Of a stretch of 64,000 nt of DNA, positions 4,140-56,298 are shown piece by piece. The stretch comes from Streptomyces sp. T12 (GTDB taxonomy: Bacteria > Actinomycetota > Actinomycetes > Streptomycetales > Streptomycetaceae). The stretch is from NCBI RefSeq assembly GCF_028736035.1, contig NZ_CP117866.1, positions 5,518,001-5,582,000 of the forward strand. Reading direction: 5' to 3'. The notes under the pieces are model-generated. The model saw nothing but the letters and a program-made list of their open reading frames with translations, made no database searches and had not been told where the DNA came from. Numbering within the stretch: position 1 is the first letter of the stretch; every line of letters begins with the position of its first letter. Position numbers and translations under genes: made by a program.

Positions 4140-4165
4140 GGGCCGATGAAAGAGAGAGCGACTCG

Positions 4166-6259: not shown

Positions 6260-6289
6260 GCCCGCCTGCCCTCCCACGGCCCCCGTGGA

Positions 6290-6514: not shown

Positions 6515-6532
6515 GCACCCGACCCTACGGTG

Positions 6533-8253: not shown

Positions 8254-8272
8254 CATGTCATGTGCGTCAGCG

Positions 8273-8476
8273 TCAGGCGGGAACGATGTTCTCGGCCTGG
8301 GGGCCCTTCTGGCCCTGCGTGACGTCGAAGGTCACCTTCTGGCCTTCCTGGAGCTCACGGAAGCCGGAGGTGGCGATGTTCGAGTAGTGGGCGAACACGT
8401 CGGGGCCGCCACCGTCCTGCTCGATGAAGCCGAAGCCCTTTTCCGCGTTGAACCACTTCACAGTGCCGGATGCCAT
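8273..8476 (-). CDS. Cold-shock protein CspA family (copy 1)
   Basis: 67 residues from ATG 8476 with GGAGA upstream. The protein is a single cold-shock domain: [20 protein letters not shown] with RNP1 KGFGFI, then DVFAHYSNI (RNP2) and [17 protein letters not shown]. These bind single-stranded RNA or DNA and act as RNA chaperones. It differs from copy 2 at only one residue (DGGGPDVF against DGGGADVF). The leader is about 160 bases and is conserved in copy 2. Its own terminator lies before the helicase gene. Confidence 0.95.
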
Positions 8477-8670
8477 AACGTATCTCCCTGGGAGCAATAT
8501 CCGGAATCCGCACTTCGCGGTCCCGGAGTCGCCGTAATGATTACCCATCCGGAATGATCCGGAATTCCTCGGAAATGAAAAGAGTGCCCGTCGACGGAGG
8601 TCGAAAGAGCACTCAAAGTTTCACTCAAAGTTTCTGGGAACCAAAACCGCAACACCTATCACGATAGCAT
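8477..8670 (-). promoter_or_regulatory. cspA copy 1 promoter and long conserved leader
   Basis: On the minus strand a possible -10 (TATCGT) near 8660 is followed by a block at 8628-8653 and a second block near 8500-8560 that both recur before cspA copy 2. The shared core is GTTTTGGTT with CCAGA a base later. Long structured leaders are known for cold-shock genes in bacteria. The region 8670-8960 beyond it shows no convincing gene. Confidence 0.55.
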
Positions 8671-8967
8671 GGGTGGACGCTCTGGACCCAGGAATTTCCG
8701 CCGCTCTCAGTTGCGTCCCCGCGCTCGTCCCGCGCTCGTCCCGGGCTGAGCGTCCCGACCGGCGCACGCGGACGCGGTACGCGCCCACCGGCTCGCCGTC
8801 GCGGCAGGACGGCCGACCAGGTGTCCGTGCCCGCCTCGGGGCGCGTCATCTCGTTCGCCGGTGCGGAAAATCGTTGGCGGCTCGAAGCGGGCAGCGTTAC
8901 GCTCGCCGGCGATGACGACTCATTCTGTTGCCAGATTGGGGGTCCCGTCCGCGCAAGGTGAGTGCTG

Positions 8968-16434: not shown

Positions 16435-16460
16435 TCCGACCCCGTCCCACCCCCCACCAG

Positions 16461-16492
16461 GGGCCGCCCGTGACACAGGACACGGGCGGCCC
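16461..16492 (+). terminator. Terminator after the MMPL gene
   Basis: 12-bp perfect stem GGGCCGCCCGTG (16461-16472) and its complement (16481-16492) with an 8-base loop, 26 bases after the MMPL stop. Confidence 0.6.
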
Positions 16493-16554
16493 CGTCGGCC
16501 GTTCGTCACCGGCGTCGTCCACCATGGCCCCACCCGCACCGACCGGAGAACCCG

Positions 16555-17802
16555 ATGACCACCCACCTGGAGCGCCGCTACGCAGACCGCATCGAGGAAT
16601 TCGCGGACCGCCACCCCTTCGTCGTCGACCTGGTCCTGGTCGCGGCGCTGATGGGCAGCGCGACCCTCGGCAGCCTGCTCACCCTGCCCGGCGCCGATCC
16701 GCCGGACCAGGACAGGACCAGCGCCGTCCTCATGGGGGTGTCCTGCCTCGCCCTGCTGAAGCACCGCACCCACCCGCGCACCGCCCTCGTCGTGACCGCG
16801 CTCTGCACGGTCGCCGTCGTAGCGATGGGATACCTGGTCACCCCGCTGCTGCTGGCACCGATCATGGCGGCGCTCTACTGGCTGGCCACCCACACCGACC
16901 GCAGGACCACCCGCGCCTACGGCATCCCCACCACCGTGGCGTTGATCCTCGCGGCCGTGTTCTCCGACTCCATGGACCACCTCTCGCTGCTGCTCAGGAC
17001 GATCGGCCCGTTCTTCTGGCTGATGCTGCCCCTCGCCGCCGGCAAGATGACCCAGCTGCGGCGCGCCTACCTGAGTTCGATGCGGGCCCGCGCCGAACAC
17101 GCCGAGCGCACCCGGGAGGAGGAGGCACGCCTGCGCGTCACCGAGGAGCGGATGCGCATCGCCCGTGAGCTGCACGACGTCGTCGCCCACCACCTGGCCC
17201 TGGCCAACGCCCAGGCCGGCACGGCCGCGCACCTGGCGCTGACCAGGCCGGAGCAGACGCAGAAGATCCTCACCGACCTGACCGGCACCACCTCCTCCGC
17301 GCTGCGCGAGCTGAAGGCCACGCTGGGGCTGCTGCGGCAGAACGGAGAACCGGACTCCCCGCCCCTGGAGCCGTCGCCCGGGCTCGCCCGCCTGCCCGAG
17401 CTGGTCTCGGCGTGCGCGTCGGCGGGAGTCACCGTCACGGTGACCACGCAGGGGGAGCCTCAGCCGCTGTCCCCCGGCGTGGACCTGACCGCGTTCCGTA
17501 TCGTGCAGGAGGCGCTCACCAACGTCACCAAGCACGCCGCCGCGGAAGCCGCGCACGTACGGCTCGACTACTCCGCCTCCCGCCTGATGATCACGGTCAG
17601 CAACGACGGCCCCGCGTCCCCCGCGGCCTCCGAGGGCGCGCGGAGCCGCGGCTTCGGCGTCATGGGCATGCGCGAACGCGCCCGCTCCATCGGCGGCGAA
17701 CTGTGCGCCGGTCACCGCCCCGAAGGCGGCTTCGAAGTCTCCACGGCACTCCCCCTGCACCCGCATGCTCCGGACCATGAAGGAAACGGTCCCGGAGCCT
17801 GA
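16555..17802 (+). CDS. Sensor histidine kinase (NarL/DesK type)
   Basis: 415 residues. The N-terminal half has several transmembrane helices (ADRHPFVVDLVLVAALMGSATLGSLL and following). The HisKA_3 dimerisation helix has the phosphoacceptor His in RIARELHDVVAHHLALANAQAG. The ATPase part shows FRIVQEALTNVTKHA (N box) and RGFGVMGMRERARSIGGEL (G box). This subfamily normally pairs with an adjacent LuxR-type response regulator, but none follows; the next gene faces the other way. The partner must be encoded elsewhere. Confidence 0.9.
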   Translation: MTTHLERRYADRIEEFADRHPFVVDLVLVAALMGSATLGSLLTLPGADPPDQDRTSAVLMGVSCLALLKHRTHPRTALVVTALCTVAVVAMGYLVTPLLLAPIMAALYWLATHTDRRTTRAYGIPTTVALILAAVFSDSMDHLSLLLRTIGPFFWLMLPLAAGKMTQLRRAYLSSMRARAEHAERTREEEARLRVTEERMRIARELHDVVAHHLALANAQAGTAAHLALTRPEQTQKILTDLTGTTSSALRELKATLGLLRQNGEPDSPPLEPSPGLARLPELVSACASAGVTVTVTTQGEPQPLSPGVDLTAFRIVQEALTNVTKHAAAEAAHVRLDYSASRLMITVSNDGPASPAASEGARSRGFGVMGMRERARSIGGELCAGHRPEGGFEVSTALPLHPHAPDHEGNGPGA

Positions 17803-41108: not shown

Positions 41109-43190
41109 ATGCACGGGCTGTCGCGGGGAACGGTGGTGTCGCAGGCGTCCTTGCCGGTGTCCGTACGGCCCGCGGTACCGGCTCCGCCGGCGCCACGCAC
41201 GGCTGCTGCCCCGTCGGCCCCATCGGTCTCAACGGCCCCAACGGCCTCATCGGCGTCCGCCGTCCGCTGGGAGACGGTTTTGTGGGCGCTCTGCTGCGGG
41301 TTCGCGCTGCTGCTCTGGCTGCGCTCGGACCTGGCTCCCCATCAGGTGTGGGGTGCCTGCGCGGCCGTCGGGTACGGCACGGCCGCGATCGTCGCCCATC
41401 GGGCCTCGCGACCCTGGGGCCGGCCGAGTGCGGCCGCCGCGGTGACCGGGTCGGTCCTCGTGCCTGTGCTGTTCCTGGTCGCCCACGGGGCGCGCCAGAT
41501 GGAGGTCGAGGTCGTCGAACGCTCCGGCGCCCTGCTGCTGGACTCCGGCAGCCCTTACGTGCCGGATCCAGCGGAACTGCGGGACTACAACCCGTACTTG
41601 CCCGGTACGGCACTCTTCGGACTGCCGCGAGCCGTTCTCGGCGAGAGCCCGCTCGGGGACGCCCGGCTCTGGTTCGCCGCCGTGTTCCTCGGCGCCATGG
41701 CGCTCGCCGCCGTGGTGGCCCTCGGCCCTCGCGGCGTGCGCGCAGGCGCCGTCCCCGCCGCAAACGCCCTGCTGTGGCTCGCCGCCGCGCCCGTGGTCGC
41801 GTTGCCGCTTGCCGTCGGTGGTGTTGATCTGCCGGTCATCGGGCTGATGTGCCTTGCCCTTGCCCTCGCCGGGCGAGGTGGCTCGGGGGTGGGCGCGGGG
41901 CTCGCGCTGGGCGCGGCGGCGGCGTTGAAGTGGACCGCCTGGCCGCTGCTGCCCGTGGGGCTGGCCCTGCTCGCGGTCACCGCCGGGCGCCGGGCCGTGC
42001 TGCGCGCCGCCGCGACGGCACTGACGCTGGCCGCGCTCGCGGTGCTCCCCATCGCCCTGGCCGACCCGCGGACCTTCGCCGAGCATCTGCTCCTGTTCCC
42101 GCTCGGCGAGGGCGGGACCGGCTCCCCGGCGACCAGCCCGCTGCCCGGTCACCTCCTGGCCCGTCATGTGCCGGGGGGCTTCGTCCTCGCGGTCGTGGCG
42201 CTCGTGGTGAGCGCGGCCGCGGTGGCCGTGTCGCTCGCCACCCGGCCGCCGCGCACCACCGTCGCCGCGGCGGACCGGCTCGCGCTGGGGCTCGGTCTCG
42301 CCATGTGCCTGATCCCGGCGACCCGCTTCGGATACCTCGTCTACCCGCTGGTGCTGCTCGGCTGGTTCCGCCTCGTGTCGGCCGGCCGGCGCCCGGCCCC
42401 GTCAGGAGCCGCCATGCCCACCCGACTCGCCCCGCCCCGGCCCGCCGAACGCCGCGTAGGCCGGACCTACTCCCTGCTGCGCACCCTCAGCCGCCGCTTC
42501 TCCTTCGTGGAGGACGAGATCGACGGTCTCCACAAGGTGGTGGGCGAGGGCGACATCTGCCTCGACGTCGGCGCGGAGTACGGGCTCTACACCTACGCCC
42601 TGTCGTGCGTGGCCGGCCCGAAGGGCAGCGTGCACAGCTTCGAGCCGCTGCCCGGCCCGTACCGCGTTCTCGGCGCCGGTATCCGCCTGCTGAGCCGCGG
42701 CCGGGCGCGTGCGCACCGCGTCGCGCTCGGCGCCCACCCGAAGGACAGGGCGGTCATGAGCCTGCCATACCGCCGTGGACTTCCCGTGCACGGGCGGGCG
42801 TTCGTCACCGACGGGGCCCAAGGGCTCGGCCCCAACAGCGAGTTCGCGGGGGAGCGGCGGCTGAACGTGCGCGTCAGCACCGTGGACGCGATGGTGACGG
42901 CGGCCGCCCTGCCCCGCGTCGACTTCATCAAGGCGGACGTCGAGGGGGCGGAACCGCTGGTGCTGGCCGGGGCGGCCCGGACGCTGCTGCGCGACCGTCC
43001 CACGCTGCTGCTGGAGATCGAGCAGCGGCACCTGGCCAAGTACGGCGCCGACGCCGACGCACTGGCCGACGAGCTGCGCCGCGCGGGCTACTCGATGTTC
43101 CTGTGGCGGGACGGCGACTGGCGCCCCGTGGACCGGGTCACCACGGCACACCGCAACTACCTGTTCACCGTGAAGCCGCTGGAGGACTGA
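41109..43190 (+). CDS. GT87-type membrane glycosyltransferase fused to FkbM methyltransferase
   Basis: 693 residues. Residues 1-435 have about ten transmembrane segments, with a loop DYNPYLPGTALFGLPRAVLG after the first ones, like polyprenol-phosphate-mannose-dependent GT87 enzymes. Residues ~436-693 form an FkbM methyltransferase: DICLDVGAEYGLYTYALS (SAM motif), VHSFEPLPGPYRVL, and FIKADVEGAEPLVL. An internal ATG at 42414 has AGGAG 5 bases upstream, so the second domain may also be made separately. Similar proteins are often separate genes. Confidence 0.75.
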   Translation: MHGLSRGTVVSQASLPVSVRPAVPAPPAPRTAAAPSAPSVSTAPTASSASAVRWETVLWALCCGFALLLWLRSDLAPHQVWGACAAVGYGTAAIVAHRASRPWGRPSAAAAVTGSVLVPVLFLVAHGARQMEVEVVERSGALLLDSGSPYVPDPAELRDYNPYLPGTALFGLPRAVLGESPLGDARLWFAAVFLGAMALAAVVALGPRGVRAGAVPAANALLWLAAAPVVALPLAVGGVDLPVIGLMCLALALAGRGGSGVGAGLALGAAAALKWTAWPLLPVGLALLAVTAGRRAVLRAAATALTLAALAVLPIALADPRTFAEHLLLFPLGEGGTGSPATSPLPGHLLARHVPGGFVLAVVALVVSAAAVAVSLATRPPRTTVAAADRLALGLGLAMCLIPATRFGYLVYPLVLLGWFRLVSAGRRPAPSGAAMPTRLAPPRPAERRVGRTYSLLRTLSRRFSFVEDEIDGLHKVVGEGDICLDVGAEYGLYTYALSCVAGPKGSVHSFEPLPGPYRVLGAGIRLLSRGRARAHRVALGAHPKDRAVMSLPYRRGLPVHGRAFVTDGAQGLGPNSEFAGERRLNVRVSTVDAMVTAAALPRVDFIKADVEGAEPLVLAGAARTLLRDRPTLLLEIEQRHLAKYGADADALADELRRAGYSMFLWRDGDWRPVDRVTTAHRNYLFTVKPLED
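42404..42416 (+). promoter_or_regulatory. Internal ribosome site and ATG before the FkbM domain
   Basis: AGGAG (42404-42408) precedes an in-frame ATG (42414-42416) inside the fusion, exactly at the domain junction. It would give a 258-residue FkbM protein. Confidence 0.6.
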
Positions 43191-44921: not shown

Positions 44922-47831
44922 GTGCAAAGCGGCTGGTTCGGCCTTGCGGAGAGACAACGGGAAGGAGAACGGATACGGAGCGCCCTGGCAGACGTCGTGT
45001 CAGGGCGCGGACGGGTGCTGCTCGTCGAGGGAGAACCCGGATCCGGCCGGTCCGCCGTGCTCGGCGGCGTGGGCGAGAGCGCGCGGGACGCCGGACTGCG
45101 GGTCCTGACCGCCCGCGGAAGCACCGAGGAACGCGGTGTGCCGTACGGACTGTGCCTGCAGCTCTTCGAGGCGCTGCTCGACGAGACCGAGCAGCCGGGA
45201 ACCGACGAGGCCCGGCCCCTGCTCGATCCGCTCAGGAAGCCGCCCACGCAGGCGGAGGGCCGGGCGATGGCCCGGATACTGCACCGGCTCGCGGTCCGGC
45301 TCGCCGCACGGGCCCCGCTGGCCCTGCTGGTCGACGACATGCAGTGGGCCGACGAGCCCTCGCTGCAGTTCCTGTCCCACCTCGCCAACCGCCTGGACGA
45401 CCGGCCCGTGCTGCTCGCCGTCACCACGACCGCACCCGACCAGGACGGACCGGCCAGACGGACCGCCGACCTGCTGGCACGACTGGGCTCCACCGTCCCG
45501 CTGTGGCTGGCGCCGCTGACCGAGGCGGCGACCGGGGCCGTCGTGCGCAGCCACTGGGCCGGGGCGGCGGAGGACGGCTTCACGGCCGTCTGCCACGAAC
45601 TGACCGGGGGCAATCCGTTCCTGCTCCACGCACTGTGCGCCGAAGCCGTCGACCAGGGGCTGCGGCCCAACGCGGCGCGCATCGGCGACCTCCGTACGAC
45701 CCTGCCCCGCAGCGTCGTACGGCAGAGCCGGCTCAGACTGGCGAGCCTCACCCCGGAGGCGGCCCGCACGGTCGAGGCAGTGGCGGTCTTCGACGCGACC
45801 GGCGCCACCGTCGACGAGGCCGCCCAGGCCGCGGACCTCACGGCAGAAGCGGCACACGAAGCCGCCACGGAAGCCGTCGCCGCCGGCCTGCTGCGGGACG
45901 GGGAGCACCTGCGGCTCGCCCAGCCCCTGTTGCGCACCGCGGTGGCCGCCCTGACCTCGCCGGCCTCGCGGGAGCGCGCCCACCGGGCCGCCGCCGGGGC
46001 GCTCGCGGCCCGCAACGCCCCCGTCTCCGCGGTCGCCGAGCACCTCCTGCACACCCCGCCCGCGGCCGACGCGTGGGCCGAGTCGGTGCTGCGCGGCGCC
46101 GCGCGCCAGACCCTGGCGGACGGCCGCGCGGACAAGTCGGTCCAGCTGCTCAGGCGCGCTCTGCGCGAACAGGCCCCCACCACAAGGGAGTACGACCTGC
46201 TCACCGAACTCGGAGCCGCGGCACTGGCCGCCGAGAGCCCCGAGGCGCTCCCCCATCTGCGCCAGGCCATGGAGAAGGCGCCCACCGCCACGACACGGGT
46301 GGCCACGGGCCTGCACTATGCGCGAGCCCTGACCCGGGAGCACCGGCATCCGGCCGCGCTTGCCCTGCTCAGAGAGCTGTCGTGCTCGCTGCCCAGCGGC
46401 GAGGAGCGGCTGCGCACCCGGCTCGACGCCATCACGGCCCTGGTCTCGCTGGCCAGCGTGGGCACCCGTGCCGACGCCCGCGCCCTCGTCCACTCCCGGT
46501 ACCCCGCGCGCACCGCCGGCGGACCGGAGGCGACGCTGCTGCGGGCCCTGCGCCTGGTGGTCGACCGGGACCACGGAGCCACCGCGAGCACCCTGGTCCG
46601 GCAGATCAACAGCATGCTGCGGATCACCGAGTTCGCGCCCGACGGGCTGACCGGACTCCCCGCCGTCCACCTCGTTGTCTGCGTCCTGGCGTGCACCGGC
46701 CGGCTCTCCGAGGCGCGCGGCCTGCTCCTGGACACCCTGCCCCACAGCACCGACACCCGCGCAGCGGAACACCAGTCGGACTCCGTGGGGCTGCAGGCCA
46801 TGCTGGCGTACGGGCTGGGCGAACTGGACGACGCGGAGCGATACGCCCGTGCCGTGCTCGACTTACGGGCCGATGACCGGCCGCCCGGACTGGGGGTCCC
46901 GCTGGCCGCGTCCGTGCTGGGGCACGTCCTGCTGGAGCGGGGCGACCGGGAGGCGGCGGGGCGGGTGCTGCGGGACAGCGTGCCGTCGGGGAAGCCGCCC
47001 GAGCAGCTGCTCTTCGCCCCGCTGTGGGAGGCGCGGGCCCGGCTCTGTGCCGAACTGGGGCGGCTCGACGAGGCGCTGGACATCTGGCGGCACGCCCGCT
47101 GGCTGACGTCCGACGGGCGGCTGGGGCTGCGGGTGACCGGAGCGTGGCACCATGTCGCGCTGGCCCTGATCGTGGCGGGCCGCGAGGACGAGGCACGGGC
47201 CATGATCCGGCGGGAGACGGAGTCCGCGCAGGAACTCGGCGCGCCCGTGCCGTTGGCGCTGGTCCACCGGGTGGACGGCGCGCTCGGCGGCGGCAGTCAC
47301 GGGCTGGAGGAACTGCAGCGAGCCGTGGCGCTGCTGTCGCCCTCCGAGCAGCCGCTCCAACTGGCGGCTGCCCTGGTGCAGTTGGGCTCGGTGCAGCGCC
47401 GCTCGCGTCAGCGTGCCGCGGCCCGGCGCTCCCTGACCCAGGGGCGGGAGATCGCCCGGGAGTGCGGTGCGCGGGCACTGGTGGAGCTGGCCGAGGCGGA
47501 GATGCGGGTGCTCGGGGCGCGGCCCGTGCGCGGCGGCATCAACCGGCTGACGCCCAGCGAGCAGCGGGTGGCGGAGCTGGCGCGGGCCGGGGTGCCCAAC
47601 CGGGAGATCGCGCGCGGTCTGTTCGTGTCCGTCAAGACCGTGGAATGGCACCTCAGCCACGTGTACCGCAAGCTCGGTGTCCGGTCCCGGCACGAGCTGC
47701 CCTCGGTACTGCCCCAGGAGACCGATGCGCCGGCCCCCGCGTCAGCCCACCAACGGCCGCCGGAACCCCCGCACCGCCAGCAGGATGCCGAGCGCCGCGA
47801 CTCCGGCACTCGCGGCCAGGGCGCCCCCTAG
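44922..47831 (+). CDS. LuxR-family ATPase regulator (LAL type) with TTA codon
   Basis: 969 residues from GTG 44922. Walker A is GEPGSGRS (37-44), Walker B near LALLVDDMQWAD, followed by long helical repeats; the C-terminal HTH is LTPSEQRVAELARAGVPNREIARGLFVSVKTVEWHLSHVYRKLGVRSRHEL. This is a typical pathway activator of Streptomyces biosynthetic clusters. A rare TTA leucine codon at 46863-46865 (residue 648) makes it dependent on the bldA tRNA. It is convergent with, and overlaps by 90 bases, the exporter permease of the lasso cluster. Confidence 0.92.
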   Translation: MQSGWFGLAERQREGERIRSALADVVSGRGRVLLVEGEPGSGRSAVLGGVGESARDAGLRVLTARGSTEERGVPYGLCLQLFEALLDETEQPGTDEARPLLDPLRKPPTQAEGRAMARILHRLAVRLAARAPLALLVDDMQWADEPSLQFLSHLANRLDDRPVLLAVTTTAPDQDGPARRTADLLARLGSTVPLWLAPLTEAATGAVVRSHWAGAAEDGFTAVCHELTGGNPFLLHALCAEAVDQGLRPNAARIGDLRTTLPRSVVRQSRLRLASLTPEAARTVEAVAVFDATGATVDEAAQAADLTAEAAHEAATEAVAAGLLRDGEHLRLAQPLLRTAVAALTSPASRERAHRAAAGALAARNAPVSAVAEHLLHTPPAADAWAESVLRGAARQTLADGRADKSVQLLRRALREQAPTTREYDLLTELGAAALAAESPEALPHLRQAMEKAPTATTRVATGLHYARALTREHRHPAALALLRELSCSLPSGEERLRTRLDAITALVSLASVGTRADARALVHSRYPARTAGGPEATLLRALRLVVDRDHGATASTLVRQINSMLRITEFAPDGLTGLPAVHLVVCVLACTGRLSEARGLLLDTLPHSTDTRAAEHQSDSVGLQAMLAYGLGELDDAERYARAVLDLRADDRPPGLGVPLAASVLGHVLLERGDREAAGRVLRDSVPSGKPPEQLLFAPLWEARARLCAELGRLDEALDIWRHARWLTSDGRLGLRVTGAWHHVALALIVAGREDEARAMIRRETESAQELGAPVPLALVHRVDGALGGGSHGLEELQRAVALLSPSEQPLQLAAALVQLGSVQRRSRQRAAARRSLTQGREIARECGARALVELAEAEMRVLGARPVRGGINRLTPSEQRVAELARAGVPNREIARGLFVSVKTVEWHLSHVYRKLGVRSRHELPSVLPQETDAPAPASAHQRPPEPPHRQQDAERRDSGTRGQGAP
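46863..46865 (+). promoter_or_regulatory. TTA codon (bldA-dependent control)
   Basis: In-frame TTA at codon 648 of the LAL regulator. TTA is rare in Streptomyces and is read by the developmentally regulated bldA tRNA, so translation of the regulator may wait for development. Confidence 0.75.
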
Positions 47832-48617
47832 CCCGCCGAGGTCGGGCGTGCCCAGGCAGAGGCTTCGCGAGGCGTCGACGGCGTAACTGAGCGGGTTGGC
47901 ACGGGCGATCACCTGGAGCCAGAACGGCATGCCGTCCACCGGGGCGAACGCGCTCGACCCGAACATCAGCGGGAACGTGGCCACCCCGGCGATGCTCTGC
48001 ATGGCGTCGAGGCTGCGCAGCCAACAGCTCAGGGCCAGGAAGACCCAGGTCAGCGCCCAGATGACAAAGCCGGCCAGGGCGACGGCGGCCGCGGTGCCGA
48101 GGATCCCGCCGGGCGGCGAGTAGCCGAACAGCGCCCACGCGAACACCGTCATGATCACCATCTGGACGCAGCAGCGCAGCAGATCGGCGAAGCCGCGGGC
48201 GAACAGGACCGAGGACAGGCCGATGGGCAGCGAACGCAGCCGCGCCATCACGCCGTTCTCCATGTCCCGGCTGAGAATGGCACCCGAGGCGGCCGCCGAA
48301 CCGATCCCGCTCGTCACCAGCAACGCCGGCAGCAGAAACTCCATGTACGGCACCCCGCTCGGCAGCAGCGCGGGATCGACCATGCTGCCGAAGAGCTGGC
48401 CGAGCACCACGAGCAGCAGCAGCGGCTGGAGGAGTTTGATCACCAGCACCCGGCGGTCGGCGAACTGGGACCACAGCGCGCGCTTGGTGAGGACGAGGAC
48501 TTGCGTGACCGGACCGCTGCCGCGCCAGCGCTCCCCGCAGCCGCGCAGCCCGGCCGCGGCGTGGGCGCGGCCGGGGGCACTCGCCGACGCCGACGAGCTG
48601 TCGACCAGGGCTTTCAT
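47742..48617 (-). CDS. ABC-2 type transporter permease (DrrB-like)
   Basis: 291 residues from ATG 48617. After an Ala/Ser-rich tail there are six hydrophobic segments typical of DrrB-like ABC-2 permeases (RRVLVIKLLQPLLLLVVLGQLFGSM, VIWALTWVFLALSCWLRS, ANPLSYAVDASRSL). It pairs with the ATPase gene upstream; between them is an array of SD-ATG repeats. The pair probably exports the lasso peptide. Confidence 0.9.
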   Translation of the reverse strand: MKALVDSSSASASAPGRAHAAAGLRGCGERWRGSGPVTQVLVLTKRALWSQFADRRVLVIKLLQPLLLLVVLGQLFGSMVDPALLPSGVPYMEFLLPALLVTSGIGSAAASGAILSRDMENGVMARLRSLPIGLSSVLFARGFADLLRCCVQMVIMTVFAWALFGYSPPGGILGTAAAVALAGFVIWALTWVFLALSCWLRSLDAMQSIAGVATFPLMFGSSAFAPVDGMPFWLQVIARANPLSYAVDASRSLCLGTPDLGGLGGALAASAGVAALGILLAVRGFRRPLVG

Positions 48618-48673
48618 GGGCGCTCCTTCATGGACGCTCCTTCATGGGCGCTCCTTCATCGACGCTCCTTCAT
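48614..48673 (-). repeat. Four 14-nt repeats forming coupled 5-codon reading frames
   Basis: On the minus strand, ATGAAGGAGCGnCC (n = C or T; the first unit ends CG) recurs every 14 bases. Each unit is a frame of five codons and a stop (MKERR or MKERP), at 48673-48656, 48659-48642, 48645-48628 and 48631-48614. Each stop overlaps the next start by ATGA, and each AAGGAG is 5 bases before the next ATG. The last one overlaps the permease start. The first starts in the ATPase stop. Confidence 0.85.
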
Positions 48674-49638
48674 GGCCGCTCCTGCGCTGCCGCCTCCGAG
48701 GAGCGGTGCCCGCTCCCGGTGAGCGCCAGGTACACGTCGTCGAGGGTGGGAGAGCTCAACTCCAGCCCGGCCAGGGCGACACCGGCCGTGTCCAGTGCCC
48801 GGACCACGGCCGGCACCTCGGCGGACGACTCCACGGGTACGCCGACGGCCGACCCGTCGGCGCCCGGTGCCGGGCGCAGGCCCGAGCGGCGCAGCGCGTC
48901 CTCGGCGGCCGCCCGCTGTCCGGGCCCGGCGAAGGACAGCTGCACCGTGAGCGTGCCGACGCGCGCCTTGAGTTCGCGGGCCGTGCCCGTCGCGGCCACC
49001 TCACCGGAGTCGAGCACCACGATGCTGTCCGCGAGCCGGTCGGCCTCCTCCAGATACTGGGTCGTCAGCAGGACGGCCACACCGTCCGCGGCCAGTGCCT
49101 CGACGATCTCCCACAACTGGACACGGCTCGCCGGGTCGAGGCCGGTGGTCGGCTCGTCCAGGAACAGCACATCCGGCCGGCCCACCAGCCCGATGGCCAG
49201 ATCGAGGCGCCGGCGCATACCGCCGGAGTAGGTGCGGGCCGGCCGCCGGGCCGCGTGCTCGAGCCCGAAGGCGGCGAGGAGTTCCTCGCTGCGCCGCCGT
49301 GCCGCACGGGGGCTCGCCCCCAGCAGCCGTGCCACGAGCAGCAGGTTGGCGTGGCCGGTCAGCCGGTCGTCGACGGCGGCGAACTGCCCGGTCAGACCGA
49401 TCCGGCGGCGTACCTGACGCCCCTGGCGGACCACGTCGTGGCCCGCCACCACGGCCGAGCCCGAGGTGGGCGGCAGCGCGGTGGTGAGGACGTTGATCAG
49501 TGTCGTCTTGCCCGCACCGTTGTGCCCCAGCAGCCCCAGCACGGACCCGGCGCGCACCCGGAGGCTGACATCGTGCAGGGCGCGCACCTCGCCGAACGTG
49601 CGCCCGACCCGCCGGGCCTCGATCATGGTGGCGCTCAT
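48670..49638 (-). CDS. ABC transporter ATP-binding protein (DrrA-like)
   Basis: 322 residues. Walker A GHNGAGKTT, signature SGGMRRRLDLA, Walker B VLFLDEPTTGLD, and the Q-loop TGQFAAVDDRLTG are all present, plus a C-terminal extension of DrrA type. It overlaps the dioxygenase stop by ATGA and precedes the permease via the tandem repeats. It is the likely lasso-peptide exporter ATPase. Confidence 0.94.
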   Translation of the reverse strand: MSATMIEARRVGRTFGEVRALHDVSLRVRAGSVLGLLGHNGAGKTTLINVLTTALPPTSGSAVVAGHDVVRQGRQVRRRIGLTGQFAAVDDRLTGHANLLLVARLLGASPRAARRRSEELLAAFGLEHAARRPARTYSGGMRRRLDLAIGLVGRPDVLFLDEPTTGLDPASRVQLWEIVEALAADGVAVLLTTQYLEEADRLADSIVVLDSGEVAATGTARELKARVGTLTVQLSFAGPGQRAAAEDALRRSGLRPAPGADGSAVGVPVESSAEVPAVVRALDTAGVALAGLELSSPTLDDVYLALTGSGHRSSEAAAQERP

Positions 49639-50522
49639 GCGCGGGAGTACGGCGTGACGTCCATGCCCGGGTACAGCTCCGCCAGCCCGGCCACGGTCTC
49701 CCGGTTCCAGTACGGCGAGCCGGGCGCGGGGAAGCCCAGCAGCTCACGCTGGCGTGGGGAGGCCTGCGCCATGAACCGGCACAGGGCGGGACCGTCGGCC
49801 GAGGCGGGGGAGCCCACCCAGGTCTGCTTGTCCAGCCAGATCGAGTCCGCGGCATGGAAGTTGAGGTACAGGGCGAAGCGGTGGCCGCTCTCGTCGCGCA
49901 CCGCGGAGCACCGGTGCACGGTGGTCCCCGTGAGCAGCAGCACCGAGCCGGCACGGGCGGGGACCGGCTCCTCCAGCTCGTACAGCCAGGGGAACTCGGC
50001 GCGGCTGTAGGCGGAGTATCCCGAGGAGAGCAGGGGCACGTCGGCGGTGTGCTTCCTGGGCACCACACAGGTGGGCCCGAGCTCCTCGGTGACGTCGGAG
50101 AGGTAGACGATCGCGAGGACGCGCTGGTACACGCCGTCCCCCCGGGGCGGGACCAGCGTGTTGCGGCCCCAGGCCTCGTTGTGCAGCTGCTGGGTGTGGG
50201 CGGGCGCGATCCGGCTGCCGTACTTGGCCTGCATGATCGAGTCACCCAGCCGGACGTCCCGGGTGCCGAGCACGCGCTCCACGCCCGAGATCAACTCCGG
50301 GTGGAGCGACAGGTGGTTGAGCGCGGGCGGCTCGTACGGGAATCCGGCCGACCTCTTCAGGGTCGCGTACCGCTCGGGCGTGCGCAGCCGTTCGGCGCTG
50401 TCCGGGAAATAACGCAGCGTTGCCTCCCGCGCCTTTTCCAGATCCGCCCCGGAAACGAAGTCGTCCACCAGGACATAGCCGTCGCGGTGCAGTTTTTCCA
50501 CCTGCTCGTCAGTGATACGCAT
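49635..50522 (-). CDS. Phytanoyl-CoA dioxygenase family (Fe/2-oxoglutarate) protein
   Basis: 295 residues from ATG 50522 with GGGAGG upstream; the frame is open a little further. The fold is shown by YVLVDDFVSGADLEKARE, a first metal motif HNEAW (HxE type), a later HRCSAVR with the distal His, and RFALYLNFHAADSIW with the 2-oxoglutarate Arg. PhyH enzymes hydroxylate small molecules and some RiPPs. The divergent position next to the precursor gene and coupling to the exporter genes suggest a tailoring hydroxylase. Confidence 0.85.
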   Translation of the reverse strand: MRITDEQVEKLHRDGYVLVDDFVSGADLEKAREATLRYFPDSAERLRTPERYATLKRSAGFPYEPPALNHLSLHPELISGVERVLGTRDVRLGDSIMQAKYGSRIAPAHTQQLHNEAWGRNTLVPPRGDGVYQRVLAIVYLSDVTEELGPTCVVPRKHTADVPLLSSGYSAYSRAEFPWLYELEEPVPARAGSVLLLTGTTVHRCSAVRDESGHRFALYLNFHAADSIWLDKQTWVGSPASADGPALCRFMAQASPRQRELLGFPAPGSPYWNRETVAGLAELYPGMDVTPYSRA

Positions 50523-50590
50523 ATCCGCCTCCCGGCCGCCATCTCCTTTGCTCACAGTAACCGCCGGGGCGGCCATCCGACTGTAGGTGA

Positions 50591-50644
50591 TTTCCCCTCA
50601 GGGAAATTCAGCAGGGGAAAGAAACCAGGTGAAAGGGACCTGGT
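50591..50644. promoter_or_regulatory. Inverted repeats in the divergent lasso promoter region
   Basis: TTTCCC-CTCA-GGGAAA (50591-50606) and ACCAGGT-n7-ACCTGGT (50624-50644) lie in the 236-base gap between the dioxygenase and precursor genes. They are candidate sites for the cluster regulator. No certain -35/-10 pair was found. Confidence 0.45.
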
Positions 50645-50758
50645 GATTCTTCGGAATGTCGCCGACGGCTCTCCGTACGCCAGAGTGGAGGCACGGAAAC
50701 GGTCCTGCCGGTCCGGATCCGATGTTCACGTCCACAAGTTATTGAGGAGGTGCTCGAC

Positions 50759-50878
50759 ATGCAGGAGAAGATCGAGATCACGGTCGACGACTTCGAGTTC
50801 GTCGGCGAGCTCGACGAGGTCACCATGGGCTGGAGCGGTCCGACCGACGACACGTTCGACGGCGACTGGACCCCGTGA
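50759..50878 (+). CDS. Lasso peptide precursor (A), 39 residues
   Basis: ATG 50759 with GAGGAGG upstream. The 39 residues divide into a 23-residue acidic leader ending EVTM, with Thr at position -2 as lasso peptidases require, and a 16-residue core GWSGPTDDTFDGDWTP. Gly1 and an Asp at 7 or 8 could form the macrolactam. The core has four Asp and no basic residue. No YxxP leader motif is seen. B2, cyclase and B1 genes follow on the same strand, which strongly supports the call. The frame is short and easily missed. Confidence 0.88.
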   Translation: MQEKIEITVDDFEFVGELDEVTMGWSGPTDDTFDGDWTP

Positions 50879-50926
50879 GCGACCTCGCTCCTTGGGTGGC
50901 GGAAGTGATTCCGTCCCGGTGAAACC

Positions 50927-50966
50927 CCAGGCGTGGCCTTTCCTTCGGTGGAAAGGCCACGCCTGG
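50927..50966 (+). terminator. Intercistronic hairpin after the precursor gene
   Basis: Perfect 17-bp stem (50927-50943 with 50950-50966) and a 6-base TTCGGT loop, extended by outer GTGAAACCC/GGGTTTCAT arms. It lies 48 bases after the precursor stop and 63 before the B2 start. It probably acts as a partial terminator that keeps the precursor transcript abundant, or protects its 3' end. Confidence 0.75.
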
Positions 50967-51029
50967 CCCCTTCCGGGTTTCATCTGTAGCGAAACGAATT
51001 GCAGCCCGCCGAGCGAGAAAGAGGAGACC

Positions 51030-51578
51030 GTGCTTTCCGCCATTCCAGCTCTCCGGTCGGCCGCCGGATCTCCCCGCGAGACCCGGCGCGATCTGCGAAG
51101 TCGCCTGGTCCGTTCCGCACTCGGTGGCGTACGCGTGCCCGCGGAGATTCCGGTGCGCGGCCGTGAGCTGCCCCGGGCGGTCGCGGACTACCTGCGGATC
51201 GGCCGTGCCTTCCGCGGCGGTGGCCTGGCGGCCGCCCTGCCGCTGCTGCCCGAGGCCGACCCGCGCCGGCCGTGGCGAGGCGGCCGGGACGAGGCGACCG
51301 CCTTCTGCGCCCGCGCGGCCGCCTGGCAGATCCAGGGCCTCGCCCGCACCGTCGCGGGAGCCCATCTGTGCCTGCACGAATCGCTCGGTGTCTGCGCGGC
51401 GCTGCGCGGGCTCGGGTTCGACGCGGAGGTCGTCATCGGCTACCCGGTCATCGAGCACTCCGACGGCAGCGAGGAACTGCACGCCTGGCCGGCCCTGGGC
51501 GACCTGCCGCTCGTCGGCCGCGGCGGGGAGCGGCCCCTCGGCTACGTCGAACTGCTCCGCTACCCGCAGGAGGGCTGA
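51030..51578 (+). CDS. Lasso peptide biosynthesis B2 protein (leader peptidase)
   Basis: 182 residues from GTG 51030 with GAGGAG upstream. It has a transglutaminase-like fold with the catalytic set Cys114 (CLHESLGVCAAL), His151 (ELHAW) and Asp158 (GD). B2 cuts the leader after the residue following the conserved Thr. N-terminal residues 1-60 are an extra helical part compared with the usual ~150-residue B2. The gene precedes the cyclase, an unusual order. Confidence 0.9.
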   Translation: MLSAIPALRSAAGSPRETRRDLRSRLVRSALGGVRVPAEIPVRGRELPRAVADYLRIGRAFRGGGLAAALPLLPEADPRRPWRGGRDEATAFCARAAAWQIQGLARTVAGAHLCLHESLGVCAALRGLGFDAEVVIGYPVIEHSDGSEELHAWPALGDLPLVGRGGERPLGYVELLRYPQEG

Positions 51579-51580
51579 TC

Positions 51581-53527
51581 ATGCTGCTCACCGCATTCGG
51601 CATGGCGGGCCGGGTCCACGTGCCCGGCGGCGCCCTCCTGGACGCGACCACGACGTACGGCGTTCCCGGCACGGTCCGCGCCGCAGCCGCCGACAGCCGC
51701 CCCCTGCTGTGCCAGGGCCCCGTGTACGACAACGGCGCCCCCCTGGACGCGGCCCGCGTGGAGCGCGCCGACCGGCTGCAGGTCACCGGCTGGCTCGACC
51801 TCTCCGCGCTGCCGGAGTTCCTGCTGCTCGACGCGGACCGCGAGCCCGGTGCCGCCCTCGCCGCGCTGCAGCGGTTGCTCGACCTGCGCGGCCCCGAAGC
51901 GGTGCGCCGGCTGCGCGGTGACTTCGTACTCGCCCATGTCGCCCCGGACGGCGGGCGGTTGAGCCTGTACCGCGCGGTGAACGCCCTGACGCCGCTGTTC
52001 TGGCGGCAGGACGGCGGCAGTCTGCTGTGGGCCGCCGACCCGGCCCAACTGCTGGGCGACCGCCCGCCCCGGCTCTCCGACGTCGACACCGACGTACTGC
52101 CCATGCTCATCGCCGAGCGCGGCATGCCCGACGACCGCTCGTGGTTCGCCGGGGTCCGCAGGCTGCCGCCCGGCAGCACGCTCGTACTGGAGCACGGCCG
52201 GGGCGCCCGGGTCGAGACGTTCGACGAGTTCCGGCCGTACGACAGCCCGCCCCGCACCATCGACGAGGCGGCCGACGGCCTGCGGGAGCGCATCGCCCAG
52301 GCCTGCGACCGGATGCTCGCCCACGAGTCCGACGCGGTGCTCATGCTCAGCGGCGGCATCGACTCGGCCGCCGTCGCCCACGAGATCGGCTCGGGGCCGG
52401 GCCGGGGCATGGGGCTGCACTTCACCCTGGAGGGCTTTCCCGGCTTCGACGCCGACCGGGAGGCGGCCGAGTCGGTGGCCCGCGCCTGCGGTCTGACGTG
52501 GATGCCGTACGAGATGTCCAAGCACACCCGGGCCGGCGGCGACTACGTCGACATCCCCGCCACCGGCGCGCTGCCGCAGACCCATGTGCCCCTGCAGGGC
52601 ATCGCGGCGGCCGTGGACCAGGCGGAGGCGGCCGGGGCGCGGTTCGTCCTGTCCGGGCTGCTGGCGGACCAGATCTTCGCCCATGATCTGCAACGCGGCC
52701 TGTTCTCGGTGGCGGGCCCCGCGATGCTCGACCCGCGGGTGGCCGGCGAGCCCGTCTGGCAGACGCTCGCGGCCGCCGCGAGGACGTCGTTCGCGGCGGG
52801 CGCCCCGGAAGCGACCGGGAGCGTCACTCGGCGGGGCACCAAGGCCGTGGCCACCGCCCGCTATCTCTACCGGCTGCTCAGCGGCGACCCCACGACCGCC
52901 CTGCCGGACCGCAACGCCATCGTGCACCCCGTCGGCTTCACCGAGGAAGCCGGCGCCCGCGTCACCCTGGCGCTGCGCGACGCCGCCGACCGGGCCCGCG
53001 ACAGCCTGCACTCGGCGATGCGACGAGGCGGCTGGTCCCCGCGCCGGCTGCCGCAGGGCATCACCTCGCTCTTCATGCTCGGCCAGTCGCTGAGCACGGC
53101 CAACCTCCAGGCGGCCTGGATCAACTACGCCCTGCCCAAACACCGGTTGATCAGTACGCCCTTCGCGGACCGGGACGTCGTGGAGTACGCCCTGGCCCTG
53201 CCCGCCCGGCACCGCATCGGCTTCGGACACGGGCTCACCGTCGACAAGTTCGCCCTGCGGCTCGCCTACGCCGACCGGGCGGTACCCGCCGGGATCGGCC
53301 ATCGCATGCAACAGGCCCGCATCGACTCGATGTCCGCGGTGTTCGTCAACCAGAACTTCGAGCTGTGCCGTTCGCTGCTGACCCCCGACTCCCTGCTCTG
53401 CCGGACGGGCGTGCTGAGCCGGACGTTCATCGACGGCCTCACCCGGGCCCGGGTGCACCGCAACGGCGAGGAGATCGCCCGCCTGTGCGTGATCGAGCGC
53501 TGGCTGGAAGGACTGGACGATGCGTGA
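51581..53527 (+). CDS. Lasso macrolactam synthetase (asparagine-synthetase-like, C protein)
   Basis: 648 residues. The N-terminal glutaminase-like part lacks a catalytic Cys at position 2 (MLLTAFG). The PP-loop SGGIDS at 257-262 begins the synthetase domain; later FVLSGLLADQIFAHDL and the C-terminal STPFADRDVVEYALALPARHRIGFGHGLTVDKF follow. It activates the Asp side chain as an acyl-AMP to close the ring on Gly1. It starts 2 bases after the B2 stop. Confidence 0.93.
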   Translation: MLLTAFGMAGRVHVPGGALLDATTTYGVPGTVRAAAADSRPLLCQGPVYDNGAPLDAARVERADRLQVTGWLDLSALPEFLLLDADREPGAALAALQRLLDLRGPEAVRRLRGDFVLAHVAPDGGRLSLYRAVNALTPLFWRQDGGSLLWAADPAQLLGDRPPRLSDVDTDVLPMLIAERGMPDDRSWFAGVRRLPPGSTLVLEHGRGARVETFDEFRPYDSPPRTIDEAADGLRERIAQACDRMLAHESDAVLMLSGGIDSAAVAHEIGSGPGRGMGLHFTLEGFPGFDADREAAESVARACGLTWMPYEMSKHTRAGGDYVDIPATGALPQTHVPLQGIAAAVDQAEAAGARFVLSGLLADQIFAHDLQRGLFSVAGPAMLDPRVAGEPVWQTLAAAARTSFAAGAPEATGSVTRRGTKAVATARYLYRLLSGDPTTALPDRNAIVHPVGFTEEAGARVTLALRDAADRARDSLHSAMRRGGWSPRRLPQGITSLFMLGQSLSTANLQAAWINYALPKHRLISTPFADRDVVEYALALPARHRIGFGHGLTVDKFALRLAYADRAVPAGIGHRMQQARIDSMSAVFVNQNFELCRSLLTPDSLLCRTGVLSRTFIDGLTRARVHRNGEEIARLCVIERWLEGLDDA

Positions 53528-53837
53528 CGAGGAACGCGACCAGGAACGCGACGAAGAACGCGACGAGATCCGCGAGTTCAGGCTCGCCGACCACATCGTC
53601 TTCCGCGAACTCCCCTTCTGCGGAGTGCTGCTGGACACCAGGAAGTTCACCGTCCACCGTCTCTCCCAGCGCGCCGGCCACGTCCTGCGGACCGCACTGG
53701 AGACGGGCGCCCCGAACCCGTACGCCCCGCTGCTCCCCGACGGCGACGAGGACACGGCGCACCGGCTGCGCCACCAGCTCCTCGACCGTCTCGTTGCGAG
53801 CGGCATGGTGCGCCGGGCCCGGAAGGAGCGTAGGTGA
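53520..53837 (+). CDS. Lasso B1 / PqqD-like leader-recognition (RRE) protein
   Basis: 105 residues, overlapping the cyclase by 8 bases. Residues ~1-18 are a charged repeat (DEERDQERDEERDEIR) from three 12-bp DNA repeats. The rest is a PqqD-like winged helix: FRLADHIVFRELPFCGVLLDTRKFTVHRLSQRAGHVLR and the C-terminal HRLRHQLLDRLVASGMV. B1 binds the leader and brings B2 to the substrate. The charged tail is unusual. Confidence 0.85.
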   Translation: MRDEERDQERDEERDEIREFRLADHIVFRELPFCGVLLDTRKFTVHRLSQRAGHVLRTALETGAPNPYAPLLPDGDEDTAHRLRHQLLDRLVASGMVRRARKERR

Positions 53838-54772
53838 GGCCCGGTCCGACGAGCCGCGCACTGGCATGGGTCGGTGACCGGCTGCCCTCCTTCCTCCCGC
53901 CGTCCGACCCGACCGCCTCGCGCGACCGCCTCAAGCCGCTCAGCGAACTCGCGCTCGTGCACTTCCATCTCGCCGGACGGCTCGGCCCGACCGGGGAACT
54001 CGACGACTGGCGGGAGTTCCTCGTCGCGGCGTGCACCGACGGTCTGGCTGCCAGGGCCGCCACCGCCGCGCCGGCCGACGGCCTCTATCTGATGCAGCCC
54101 TGTCTGTGGCTGCGAGCAGCAGGCCACCGGGACGACGACTGCGAACGCGTCCTGCGCGACCAGGCTCGCGCCGGTCTGCGCCCTGGCTCGCCGGGCGTCC
54201 TCCACGCCCTGCAGGCCGCCGGTCTGCTGCGCACGCCGCCGGACTGGCCGGGGCTGTGCCGGACGCGGGTGCTGCGCCGGGAGTGGACGGACGAGGACCT
54301 CGTCCGCGACGCCTACCGCGTCACCCACGCGGTCTTCTACGCCACCGACATGGGCCGTACGACGCTCGCGCTGTCCCCCGCCGAACAGGACCGGTTCGTC
54401 TCGCTGCTGGAGCGACTGCGTGCCTACGCCCGGGACGCCGGCCGCTGGGACCTGCTGATCGAGACCCTGATCGCCCTGCGCGGCATCGGGGCCGCCGCCC
54501 CGGCCGCCGAGGACGCATGGGCGGTACGACGCGAGGAACTGGCCGTCCACTGCGACGGCGGCACCCCCCTGGACGAGGCGGCGGTCCGCCTGCTCACCCG
54601 CTCCCGGTCCCGGCCGGACGAAGCGGCGCTCTTCCGTTCCTGCTACCACGCGACCCTGGCCGACCTGCTGCTCCAGTCCCTGTCGGTTCCCGCGCCGGAA
54701 GGAGACCCCGCACCATGCCCGAAGCCGTCACACCCCAAGGCGCCGTCCCTGACGCGGACGTCATCGTCGTAG
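53834..54772 (+). CDS. Uncharacterised lasso-cluster protein (DUF6895-like)
   Basis: 312 residues from GTG 53834, overlapping B1 by GTGA. It is helical and Leu/Arg/Asp-rich (SELALVHFHLAGRLGPTGELDDWREFLVAAC, YRVTHAVFYATDMG, LLERLRAYARDAGRWDLLIETLIALRGIG). The pattern resembles an actinobacterial family sometimes named DUF6895, found with peptide clusters. I see no catalytic motif. Its end overlaps the FAD monooxygenase start by 58 bases. A role in maturation or resistance is possible but unproven. Confidence 0.7.
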   Translation: MRPGPTSRALAWVGDRLPSFLPPSDPTASRDRLKPLSELALVHFHLAGRLGPTGELDDWREFLVAACTDGLAARAATAAPADGLYLMQPCLWLRAAGHRDDDCERVLRDQARAGLRPGSPGVLHALQAAGLLRTPPDWPGLCRTRVLRREWTDEDLVRDAYRVTHAVFYATDMGRTTLALSPAEQDRFVSLLERLRAYARDAGRWDLLIETLIALRGIGAAAPAAEDAWAVRREELAVHCDGGTPLDEAAVRLLTRSRSRPDEAALFRSCYHATLADLLLQSLSVPAPEGDPAPCPKPSHPKAPSLTRTSSS

Positions 54773-56298
54773 GCGCAGGCCCCGTGGGGCTGATGCTGGC
54801 CTGCGAACTGGCGCTGGCCGGCACCGACGTCCTGGTTCTCGAGCGGGCGGCCGACTTCGACCGGCGGCTGCGCGCACCCGGCATCACCGCCCGCAGCATC
54901 GAGGCGCTGGACCGGCGCGGCCTGCTGGACCCGCTGATGGAGGCCACCGCCCGGGCCGAACCGGCGTACCGGACCGAGCGCGCCCCGCACGGCAGGGCAC
55001 CCGAGATGCTGCCCGTCCGCGCCGGGATCCTCGAAGAGGTCCTGTACGACTGCCTGGTGCGCCTGGGCGGCAGGCTGGAACGCGGGCTGAGCGTGACCGG
55101 CGTGACCGGCGTGACCGATGCGACGGACACGACGAACACGACGGACGTGACCGACGCGCCTGTCGTGGTGACCGCCACCGACGGCGACGGCCGCGGCCGC
55201 GCTTTCCGCGCCGCGTACGTCGTGGGCTGCGACGGCGGCCGCAGTGCGGTCCGCAAGGCGCTCGGCGTCGGCTTTCCCGGTGGGGGACCCGAGGTGACGG
55301 GCTATCAGGCGGTGGTGACGGTCGAGCCCGAGGGCGCCCTGGAGCGGACCTGGAGCCGAACCCCCCGCGGTATCGCGGCCTACGCGCTCGGCCCCAGCCG
55401 GATCGTCAGCGTCGAGTTCGACACCCCGCCCGTGGACCGGCACCGTGAGGTGACCCTCGACGAGGTCGAAGCCAGCCTGCGCCGCACCAGCGGGGTCGAG
55501 GTCACCCTGAGCGACCCGGTCTCGCTCGCACGGTTCACCGGCAACTGCCGGCTGGCGGAGCGCTACCGGCGCGGGCGGGTGTTCCTGGCGGGCGATGCCG
55601 CCCATGTGCACCCGCCCTTCGGCGGACAGGGCCTCAACCTCGGTCTGCAGGACGCGGTCAACCTCGGTTGGAAGCTCGCCGCGGCCGTCCGCGGTGACGC
55701 TCCGGCGGGGCTGCTCGACAGCTATGAGAGCGAACGCCGACCGGTGGCGGCCCGCGTACTGCGCAACTCGGAGGCCGCGACCCGGCTGCTGCACCCCGGC
55801 GCGCACAACAACGCCCCCTACGAGCTGTTCTTCCGGGAGCTGATGACCGATCCCGCGGTCAAGCAGCGCCTTCACGACGTGTACGCGATGAAGGACCTGA
55901 TCTACCCCATGGGCGGGGACGGCGGGGACGGTGGGGACAGCGAGGAGTCGGATCTCCTCGGCCGTGCCGCCCCGGATCTCCTTCTGGAGCGTCCGCGGCC
56001 GTACGACGGCGCGGGCCAGGTGCGGCTGGCCACGCTGCAACGGGCCGGCCGTGCCGTGCTGGTGCACACCACCGACCACAGCGAGCTCCCGCGGCTGGCG
56101 GAGGGCTGGCGGGACCGGGTCGACGTGGTGGCCGCCGGAGCCGTGTCACCGGAGATACCGACGCCCCTGCTCATCCGGCCCGACGGCTACGTCGCATGGG
56201 CCTGCGGCACGGATCCCGACGGGCTCACCGCAGCGCTGCACCACTGGTTCGGCGAGCCGGCCGGGACCAGCGGCTCCGGGACAGCGCGCGCTGCCTGA
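54715..56298 (+). CDS. FAD-dependent monooxygenase of the lasso cluster
   Basis: 527 residues from ATG 54715 with GGAAGGAG upstream. VIVVGAGPVGLMLACELALAGTDVLVLER, VVGCDGGRSAVRKALG and RGRVFLAGDAAHVHPPFGGQGLNLGLQDAVNLGWKL mark a PHBH-type aromatic hydroxylase. Residues ~126-147 are a low-complexity Thr/Val/Asp insert from 9-bp DNA repeats. Its place at the end of the lasso operon suggests it hydroxylates a core Trp or Phe, or acts on another product. This is an inference. Confidence 0.88.
   Translation: MPEAVTPQGAVPDADVIVVGAGPVGLMLACELALAGTDVLVLERAADFDRRLRAPGITARSIEALDRRGLLDPLMEATARAEPAYRTERAPHGRAPEMLPVRAGILEEVLYDCLVRLGGRLERGLSVTGVTGVTDATDTTNTTDVTDAPVVVTATDGDGRGRAFRAAYVVGCDGGRSAVRKALGVGFPGGGPEVTGYQAVVTVEPEGALERTWSRTPRGIAAYALGPSRIVSVEFDTPPVDRHREVTLDEVEASLRRTSGVEVTLSDPVSLARFTGNCRLAERYRRGRVFLAGDAAHVHPPFGGQGLNLGLQDAVNLGWKLAAAVRGDAPAGLLDSYESERRPVAARVLRNSEAATRLLHPGAHNNAPYELFFRELMTDPAVKQRLHDVYAMKDLIYPMGGDGGDGGDSEESDLLGRAAPDLLLERPRPYDGAGQVRLATLQRAGRAVLVHTTDHSELPRLAEGWRDRVDVVAAGAVSPEIPTPLLIRPDGYVAWACGTDPDGLTAALHHWFGEPAGTSGSGTARAA
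55083..55160 (+). repeat. Repeated 9-bp units inside the monooxygenase gene
   Basis: Tandem GTGACCGGC-like and GACGGACAC-like units encode TGVTGVTDATDTTNTTDVTD. The insert lies in a loop near residues 126-147 and can change length in frame. Confidence 0.7.

Follow-up and report, generated by a model that had tools for sequence, protein, structure and literature searches.

The question raised by this locus is whether a group of genes in Streptomyces sp. T12 makes a lasso peptide, and if so by which variant of the route. The genes lie at positions 44922-56298 of the window, by which we mean the whole stretch analysed (64,000 nucleotides of contig NZ_CP117866.1, positions 5,518,001 to 5,582,000; 72% GC, from a genome of 11.46 Mb). 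The first-pass annotation had described an apparently complete lasso-peptide cluster with two oxygenases, and an open reading frame (ORF) check together with Pfam and NCBIfam confirmed its ten genes, on coherent strands and at the coordinates listed here. Our results support that description, and a complete lasso-type cluster equipped with two oxygenases is their best reading. We consider it likely, with good confidence, that the pathway is lasso-type in mechanism and divergent; its product is probably a small ring-shaped lasso-type peptide. The features that carry this reading are the precursor (A) and the core enzymes B2, C and B1.

50759-50878, plus strand: precursor of 39 residues, MQEKIEITVDDFEFVGELDEVTM (leader) then GWSGPTDDTFDGDWTP (core)
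50759-50827, plus strand: leader MQEKIEITVDDFEFVGELDEVTM, with Thr(-2) and Gly(-8) invariant in 45/45 relatives
50828-50875, plus strand: core GWSGPTDDTFDGDWTP, predicted Gly1-Asp8 macrolactam; stop codon at 50876-50878
51030-51578, plus strand: B2 leader peptidase, transglutaminase-like (PF13471, Transglut_core3, 29.1 bits, cut-off 26)
51581-53527, plus strand: C macrolactam synthetase (cyclase), Asn-synthetase-like (PF00733, Asn_synthase, 47.7 bits), with an SGGxDS ATP site
53520-53837, plus strand: B1, a discrete recognition element (RRE) of ribosomally synthesized and post-translationally modified peptides (NF038044, actinodefensin-associated protein B, 60 bits, cut-off 45)

Relatives of the cyclase were sought among 5.8 billion proteins, from which 8000 candidates were scored. 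Forty-eight matched, 38 of them close (46-100% identity, the window's own included) and ten distant (26-34%). A profile built from 26 of the 48 was scanned against GTDB contigs and returned eight loci, of which two were dropped as distant (25-26% identity). The six true loci, at 44-88% identity, belong to S. afghaniensis (L003), Prauserella (L004), Sorangium So ce26 (L005), Jidongwangia (L006), Spongiactinospora (L007) and a Streptosporangiales metagenome-assembled genome (L008), so that the family spans two phyla, including the myxobacterium Sorangium, with tailoring genes in the same positions across both. The unusual gene order A-B2-C-B1 noted at first was found by tblastn in 7/7 loci, the window included. 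The cluster family is rare in the sampled genomes: the cyclase occurred in 1/392 genomes of the genus at E ≤ 1e-30 and, at E ≤ 1e-40, in 1/396 of the phylum, 1/200 of the Prauserella family, 1/108 of the Sorangium family and 1/250 of the Jidongwangia family, each sample returning only the genome already known. Named proteins point to further hosts, among them S. purpurascens (by the precursor) and, by a DUF6895 protein, Streptomyces sp. NPDC050546 and S. violaceus.

The precursor matches no Pfam or NCBIfam model. Eight copies were found, each ahead of B2, in the window and the six loci (Jidongwangia has two), and a search with their alignment identified 45 proteins among 327 candidates, all at E < 1e-9; three of these (P0058, P0060, P0066) are identical to query rows, and P0057 seemingly represents the cluster that holds the window's own precursor. 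Because an AGGAGG ribosome-binding site precedes the ATG, and because of the 45 database relatives and the eight copies before B2, the precursor is not a chance ORF. Conservation of the frame in related genomes, proposed at the outset as a check, is thus strong. The accompanying claim that a standard gene caller would overlook the gene found no support, since six of the 45 relatives are annotated proteins with names given by NCBI. Compared with the S. afghaniensis precursor there are two synonymous and no non-synonymous differences over 38 codons including the stop, a number so small that it is weak evidence alone.

A lasso core has Gly, or another residue accepted there, at position 1 and Asp or Glu at positions 7-9 for the isopeptide bond. 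In a scripted count G1, D8, G12, D13, T-2 and G-8 were invariant in 45/45 relatives, and the four core residues were also constant in the eight locus copies, so Gly1 and an Asp at positions 7-9 are present throughout. Near-invariant positions were W2 and T6 (44/45), P5 and G4 (41/45), D11 (40/45) and W14 (39/45); residue 16 is Pro in 34/45, and positions 9-10 are the most variable. From these invariant residues, with positions 9-10 changing freely, we predict a Gly1-Asp8 macrolactam ring. D8 appears to be the ring residue rather than D7, because the former is found in every relative and the latter in 38/45, with Y, Q, P or E in the others. The unmodified macrolactam has a computed monoisotopic mass of 1734.680 ([M+2H]2+ 868.347), to which each oxygen would add 15.995, epimerization being mass-silent. 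Near-identity of the core from Streptomyces to Sorangium, with two variable loop residues, suggests a fixed target, and the 27 distinct cores among the 45 relatives are a ready set of natural variants for tests of enzyme tolerance and activity.

An excerpt of PMC10368454 gives Thr at leader position -2 as the usual recognition element, and this residue is present in all 45 leaders. The register is shared with a canonical precursor from the same genus (locus L049, contig G062:C113), the two reading ...VGELDEVTM|G here and ...VGEFSELTM|W in L049. The B2 protein is a transglutaminase-like Cys peptidase above the Pfam cut-off, and its CLHESL and ELHAW motifs, which hold the Cys and His, are invariant in the alignment of 7/7 loci. 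The cyclase is of the Asn-synthetase-like type expected of C, with S257, G258, G259, D261 and S262 of the SGGxDS site invariant in 26/26 rows; the window copy lacks the N-terminal Cys. B1 is RRE-sized, has no Pfam match and fits the actinodefensin-associated model rather than the lasso one.

From these observations a route can be proposed. B1 would bind a leader in which YxxP has been lost and the lasso pattern survives in the C-terminal half (V-9 G-8 x L-6 x x x T-2), presumably recognizing an acidic and hydrophobic E-F-[VIL]-G block instead. B2 would then cleave between residue -1 and Gly1, and C would activate Asp8 with ATP and close a ring of eight residues, from Gly1 to Asp8, about the tail TFDGDWTP, the ring being predicted from conservation and the threading by analogy. 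DUF6895 may invert one residue, as the report on its family suggests, the ColD-like oxygenase may oxidize an aliphatic position, and the FAD monooxygenase would most likely hydroxylate the indole of Trp2. It is probable that all three tailoring enzymes act on the core. Export would fall to DrrAB, and a LAL regulator together with a conserved promoter site may control the pathway.

Several points weigh against this reading. None of the 45 leaders combines [Y/W] at position -17 with P at position -14, and one has an out-of-register [YW]xxP. Excerpts state that discrete lasso RREs bind [Y/W]xxPx[LVIFA], a predominant and not universal motif (PMC13381572), and place the YxxPxL-type motif at -17 to -12 (PMC10368454); we counted its absence among the differences without taking it to rule out a lasso peptide. 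In the window, B2, C and B1 all scored below the cut-offs of the NCBIfam lasso models. For B2, model NF033537 (cut-off 33) gave 26.6 bits in the window, 24.7 in Prauserella, 27.6 in Sorangium and 34.0 in the Streptosporangiales locus, the scan covering these four loci; for C the lasso-cyclase models gave 53 bits against a cut-off of 300 and 26 against 525, and for B1 the lasso PqqD model NF033530 gave 14 against 70. The window cyclase showed no significant BLAST similarity to the one canonical lasso cyclase compared, that of L049 (E 0.75), and hhalign aligned the two at a probability of 69% over 259 columns only. The assignment of tailoring enzymes to residues, set out below, rests on six complete loci and is suggestive.

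The leader without YxxP, a cyclase that BLAST cannot align with the one canonical lasso cyclase compared and hhalign aligns only locally, and an RRE closest to the actinodefensin-associated model would all suit a product that is a branched-cyclic, unthreaded macrolactam, or one whose ring is closed by an independently recruited Asn-synthetase, lasso-like up to the ring only. We regard this as unlikely, given that T-2, G-8, G1, D8, the B2 and RRE partners and the ColD-like oxygenase are all lasso-type. A related idea, to which we give slightly less credence still, is that of a separately evolved lasso-former, in which a cyclase lineage outside the known ones and an actinodefensin-type RRE on a non-YxxP leader would have converged on T-2, Gly1 and Asp8, with an anionic core that perhaps binds metal. 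Four acidic and zero basic residues are found in 36/45 cores. It is a speculation, drawn from known motifs, that the frozen anionic core (D7, D11-G12-D13, possibly an oxidized Asp) might bind Ca2+, as a ribosomal analogue of the acidic calcium-dependent lipopeptides.

The actinodefensin link was followed through NF038044, which matched in 8/120 relative genomes, twice over the cut-off. Besides the window's, the loci over the cut-off are L044, in the same genome (84 bits), and L045, in genome G043 (89 bits); both were called actinodefensin-type from the RRE model together with a Cys-rich ORF. They share with the window an RRE of the same NCBIfam family and differ from it in their Cys-rich peptides and S9-peptidase ORFs. 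The Cys-rich precursor that marks actinodefensins was not found among the lasso-type cores: that of the window has no Cys, and 1/45 relatives has one. L044 (C1, 7.942-7.960 Mb) holds a Cys-rich short ORF, the NF038044 RRE and an S9-peptidase ORF and is probably actinodefensin-type. Beside the RRE of L045, a 643-residue ORF (5910-7841) resembles the window cyclase weakly (27% over 139 residues, E 6e-4) and may be a distant cousin; neither it nor its L044 counterpart matches a Pfam family.

The window cluster can be compared with L049, an apparent collinodin-like canonical lasso cluster of order A-C-B1-B2-ColD with precursor MIENEITEYEAPEMLPVGEFSELTM (leader) and WYGWASNDGEGVAII (core), in which A, B1 and B2 were assigned by eye and C by Pfam. 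Common to both are G-8, [LF]-6 and T-2 of the leader, split B1 and B2, an Asn-synthetase-like C and a ColD-type oxygenase (46% identity). L049 differs in its gene order, its YxxP leader, the core WYGWASNDGEGVAII and a cyclase without significant BLAST similarity to that of the window, and the 19.9 kb examined contain no DUF6895 match (best E 0.41) and no match to the FAD monooxygenase. That the window holds an ordinary canonical cluster with its genes merely shuffled would account for the shared set of activities, but we consider it highly improbable in view of the A-B2-C-B1 order in 7/7 loci, the sub-threshold NCBI lasso models, the different leader motif and the near-frozen core. The cluster is probably a distinct form of lasso biosynthesis, marked by a new leader code, another type of RRE, a separate cyclase lineage, a near-frozen core and three probable tailoring enzymes, subject to what the reports on the DUF6895 epimerase and on collinodin, cited here by title, describe. 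It defines a lasso-type family that the NCBI lasso models leave unnamed in the window: its leader is recognized by another code, its cyclase lies far from the single canonical one used for comparison, and as many as three tailoring enzymes may act on one 16-residue core.

The predicted tailoring enzymes are encoded on both sides of the precursor promoter.

49635-50522, minus strand: PhyH-type Fe(II)/2-oxoglutarate oxygenase, ColD-like (PF05721)
53834-54772, plus strand: DUF6895 protein, predicted peptide epimerase (PF21836, 134 bits, cut-off 23.8)
54715-56298, plus strand: FAD-dependent aromatic monooxygenase, predicted Trp2 hydroxylase (PF01494, FAD_binding_3, 245 bits; PF21274, Rng_hyd_C, 84 bits)

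The oxygenase start was placed at 50522 because it is conserved with S. afghaniensis, the longest ORF reaching 50576. H114, D/E116, H203 and R215 are conserved in 4/4 sequences. We take the first three to be the Fe(II) triad HX(D/E)...H and R215 to be the 2-oxoglutarate-binding Arg, which together make up the ColD-type signature in all four. The sole PDB sequence match was 8xp6/8xpf (257 bits for 8xp6), 8xp6 being described as ColD and 8xpf as a complex with collinodins. One other match at E ≤ 1e-40 was found in 150 genomes of the genus (46% identity over 284 residues); it lies in L049 and is a near relative of ColD, with 627 bits against 8xp6. Collinodin, named in the title of a 2025 paper (Shi J. 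et al., ACS Catal), is taken as a lasso peptide because of the L049 cluster and because the reference lists of a review centred on lasso peptides and of another lasso paper cite it.

The gene initially listed as encoding an unknown protein is indeed present, but its product belongs to DUF6895. Its AlphaFold2 (AF2) model is all-helical (pLDDT 88), and H165, D206, E210, C270 and H272 are among the residues invariant in ten rows, of which one is a distant paralogue. The title of Shi M. et al. (ACS Catal 2026) names a DUF6895 lasso-peptide epimerase, and it is by this title that the two are likened. DUF6895 genes matched in 72/150 genomes of the genus (71/150 over the cut-off), with at least two copies in 50 of the 72, often adjacent; a tandem pair also lies elsewhere in the T12 genome (L024, 7466-9395; C1, ~10.006 Mb). 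The FAD monooxygenase has its best solved relatives in polyketide oxygenases and rifampin monooxygenase.

The distribution of these genes bears on their targets. The FAD monooxygenase was matched in the window, S. afghaniensis, Prauserella, Sorangium and Jidongwangia, all with Trp2 in the core, and tblastn of the Streptosporangiales locus (Pro2, core without Trp) gave no match; Spongiactinospora was set aside here, as its locus ends inside DUF6895. Across the six complete loci, of which two are close to identical, the enzyme tracks with Trp2, which is suggestive. The 2-oxoglutarate oxygenase was matched in the window, S. afghaniensis, Prauserella and Sorangium, all with D7 and D11, and tblastn found none in the Jidongwangia (Y7, W11) or Streptosporangiales (Q7, I11) loci. 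DUF6895 was matched in every locus except Jidongwangia. This patchy presence, and the frequency of DUF6895 genes without this cyclase in the genus (71/150 genomes, against 1/392 for the cyclase), would fit a lasso peptide whose three presumed tailoring enzymes are bystanders with no part in its modification. We judge that very unlikely, since the genes keep the same positions across two phyla, the stop and start codons of B1, DUF6895 and the monooxygenase overlap in the window, and lasso precedents exist for ColD-like and DUF6895 enzymes, as far as the titles and excerpts cited here go.

Known lasso pathways offer parallels for tailoring of the lasso-type core. Excerpts on canucin A (PMC9266682, PMC8498205) describe CanE as a 2-oxoglutarate oxygenase that β-hydroxylates the C-terminal Asp of the linear precursor, aided by B1. 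The likeness is one of described activity, and the target differs, residue 16 of the window family being mostly Pro. In MS-271, according to an excerpt of PMC9266682, MslH acts on the linear precursor and epimerizes its C-terminal Trp, again aided by B1. Both pathways thus have a dedicated, here predicted, epimerase, but MslH is of the CapA/metallophosphatase type and the DUF6895 model is all-helical. Because CanE and MslH act on linear precursors, modification ahead of folding is likely in this pathway; the crystal structure of ColD with collinodins makes a mature-peptide substrate possible as well. Lasso peptides with oxidized or halogenated Trp include RES-701-2/-4, whose 7-hydroxy-Trp is ascribed in an excerpt of PMC8498205 to ResE, proposed without proof and without conserved domains, and chlorolassin, in which an excerpt assigns Trp halogenation to ChlH; the window enzyme differs as a FAD_binding_3/Rng_hyd_C monooxygenase. 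Trp halogenase genes lie near the Prauserella (3875-5674) and Jidongwangia (15456-17168) clusters, the latter also with an FMN reductase, and a modified Trp in the family fits with them.

The remaining features are those of regulation and export.

44922-47831, plus strand: LAL-family protein, probable pathway regulator (PF13191, AAA_16; PF00196, GerE, LuxR helix-turn-helix)
47742-48617, minus strand: ABC-2 permease, DrrB type, putative exporter or self-protection (PF01061, 116 bits; 91% identity to S. afghaniensis, 49% to Prauserella)
48670-49638, minus strand: DrrA-type ABC ATPase (TIGR01188, 329 bits, cut-off 312; 87% to S. afghaniensis, 61% to Prauserella)
50582-50617, no strand assigned: conserved palindrome-containing site TGTAGGTgATTTCCCCtcAGGGAAAttcagcaGGGG, 36 bases, in the divergent oxygenase/precursor promoter, common to S. 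afghaniensis and Prauserella

On the plus strand the precursor is followed after 151 bases by B2, C, B1, DUF6895 and the FAD monooxygenase, separated by overlaps or a 2-base gap; the oxygenase and DrrAB form an operon running the opposite way. The exporter pair and the LAL regulator that the first-pass annotation counted in are both in the window, but neither is constant across the relatives. Only S. afghaniensis gave a match over the full length of the LAL protein, adjoining the cluster and split over frames; in Prauserella, Jidongwangia and the Streptosporangiales locus the match was limited to the ~50-residue helix-turn-helix. DrrA and DrrB had no match within 10 kb of the Sorangium cyclase. 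The TGTAGGTgATTTCCCCtcAGGGAAAttcagcaGGGG site, a candidate operator, was not seen upstream in the Sorangium, Jidongwangia, Spongiactinospora or Streptosporangiales loci; a weaker GGTAGGTAATTTCAC precedes the Jidongwangia precursors. Also at the Jidongwangia locus, a RamC-like/LanC-like protein (5884-8769), by architecture a class III lanthipeptide synthetase, lies beside the lasso-type cluster. Elsewhere in the window a 693-residue ORF (41109-43190) combines a GT87 glycosyltransferase region with an FkbM methyltransferase domain and adjoins a glycosyltransferase.

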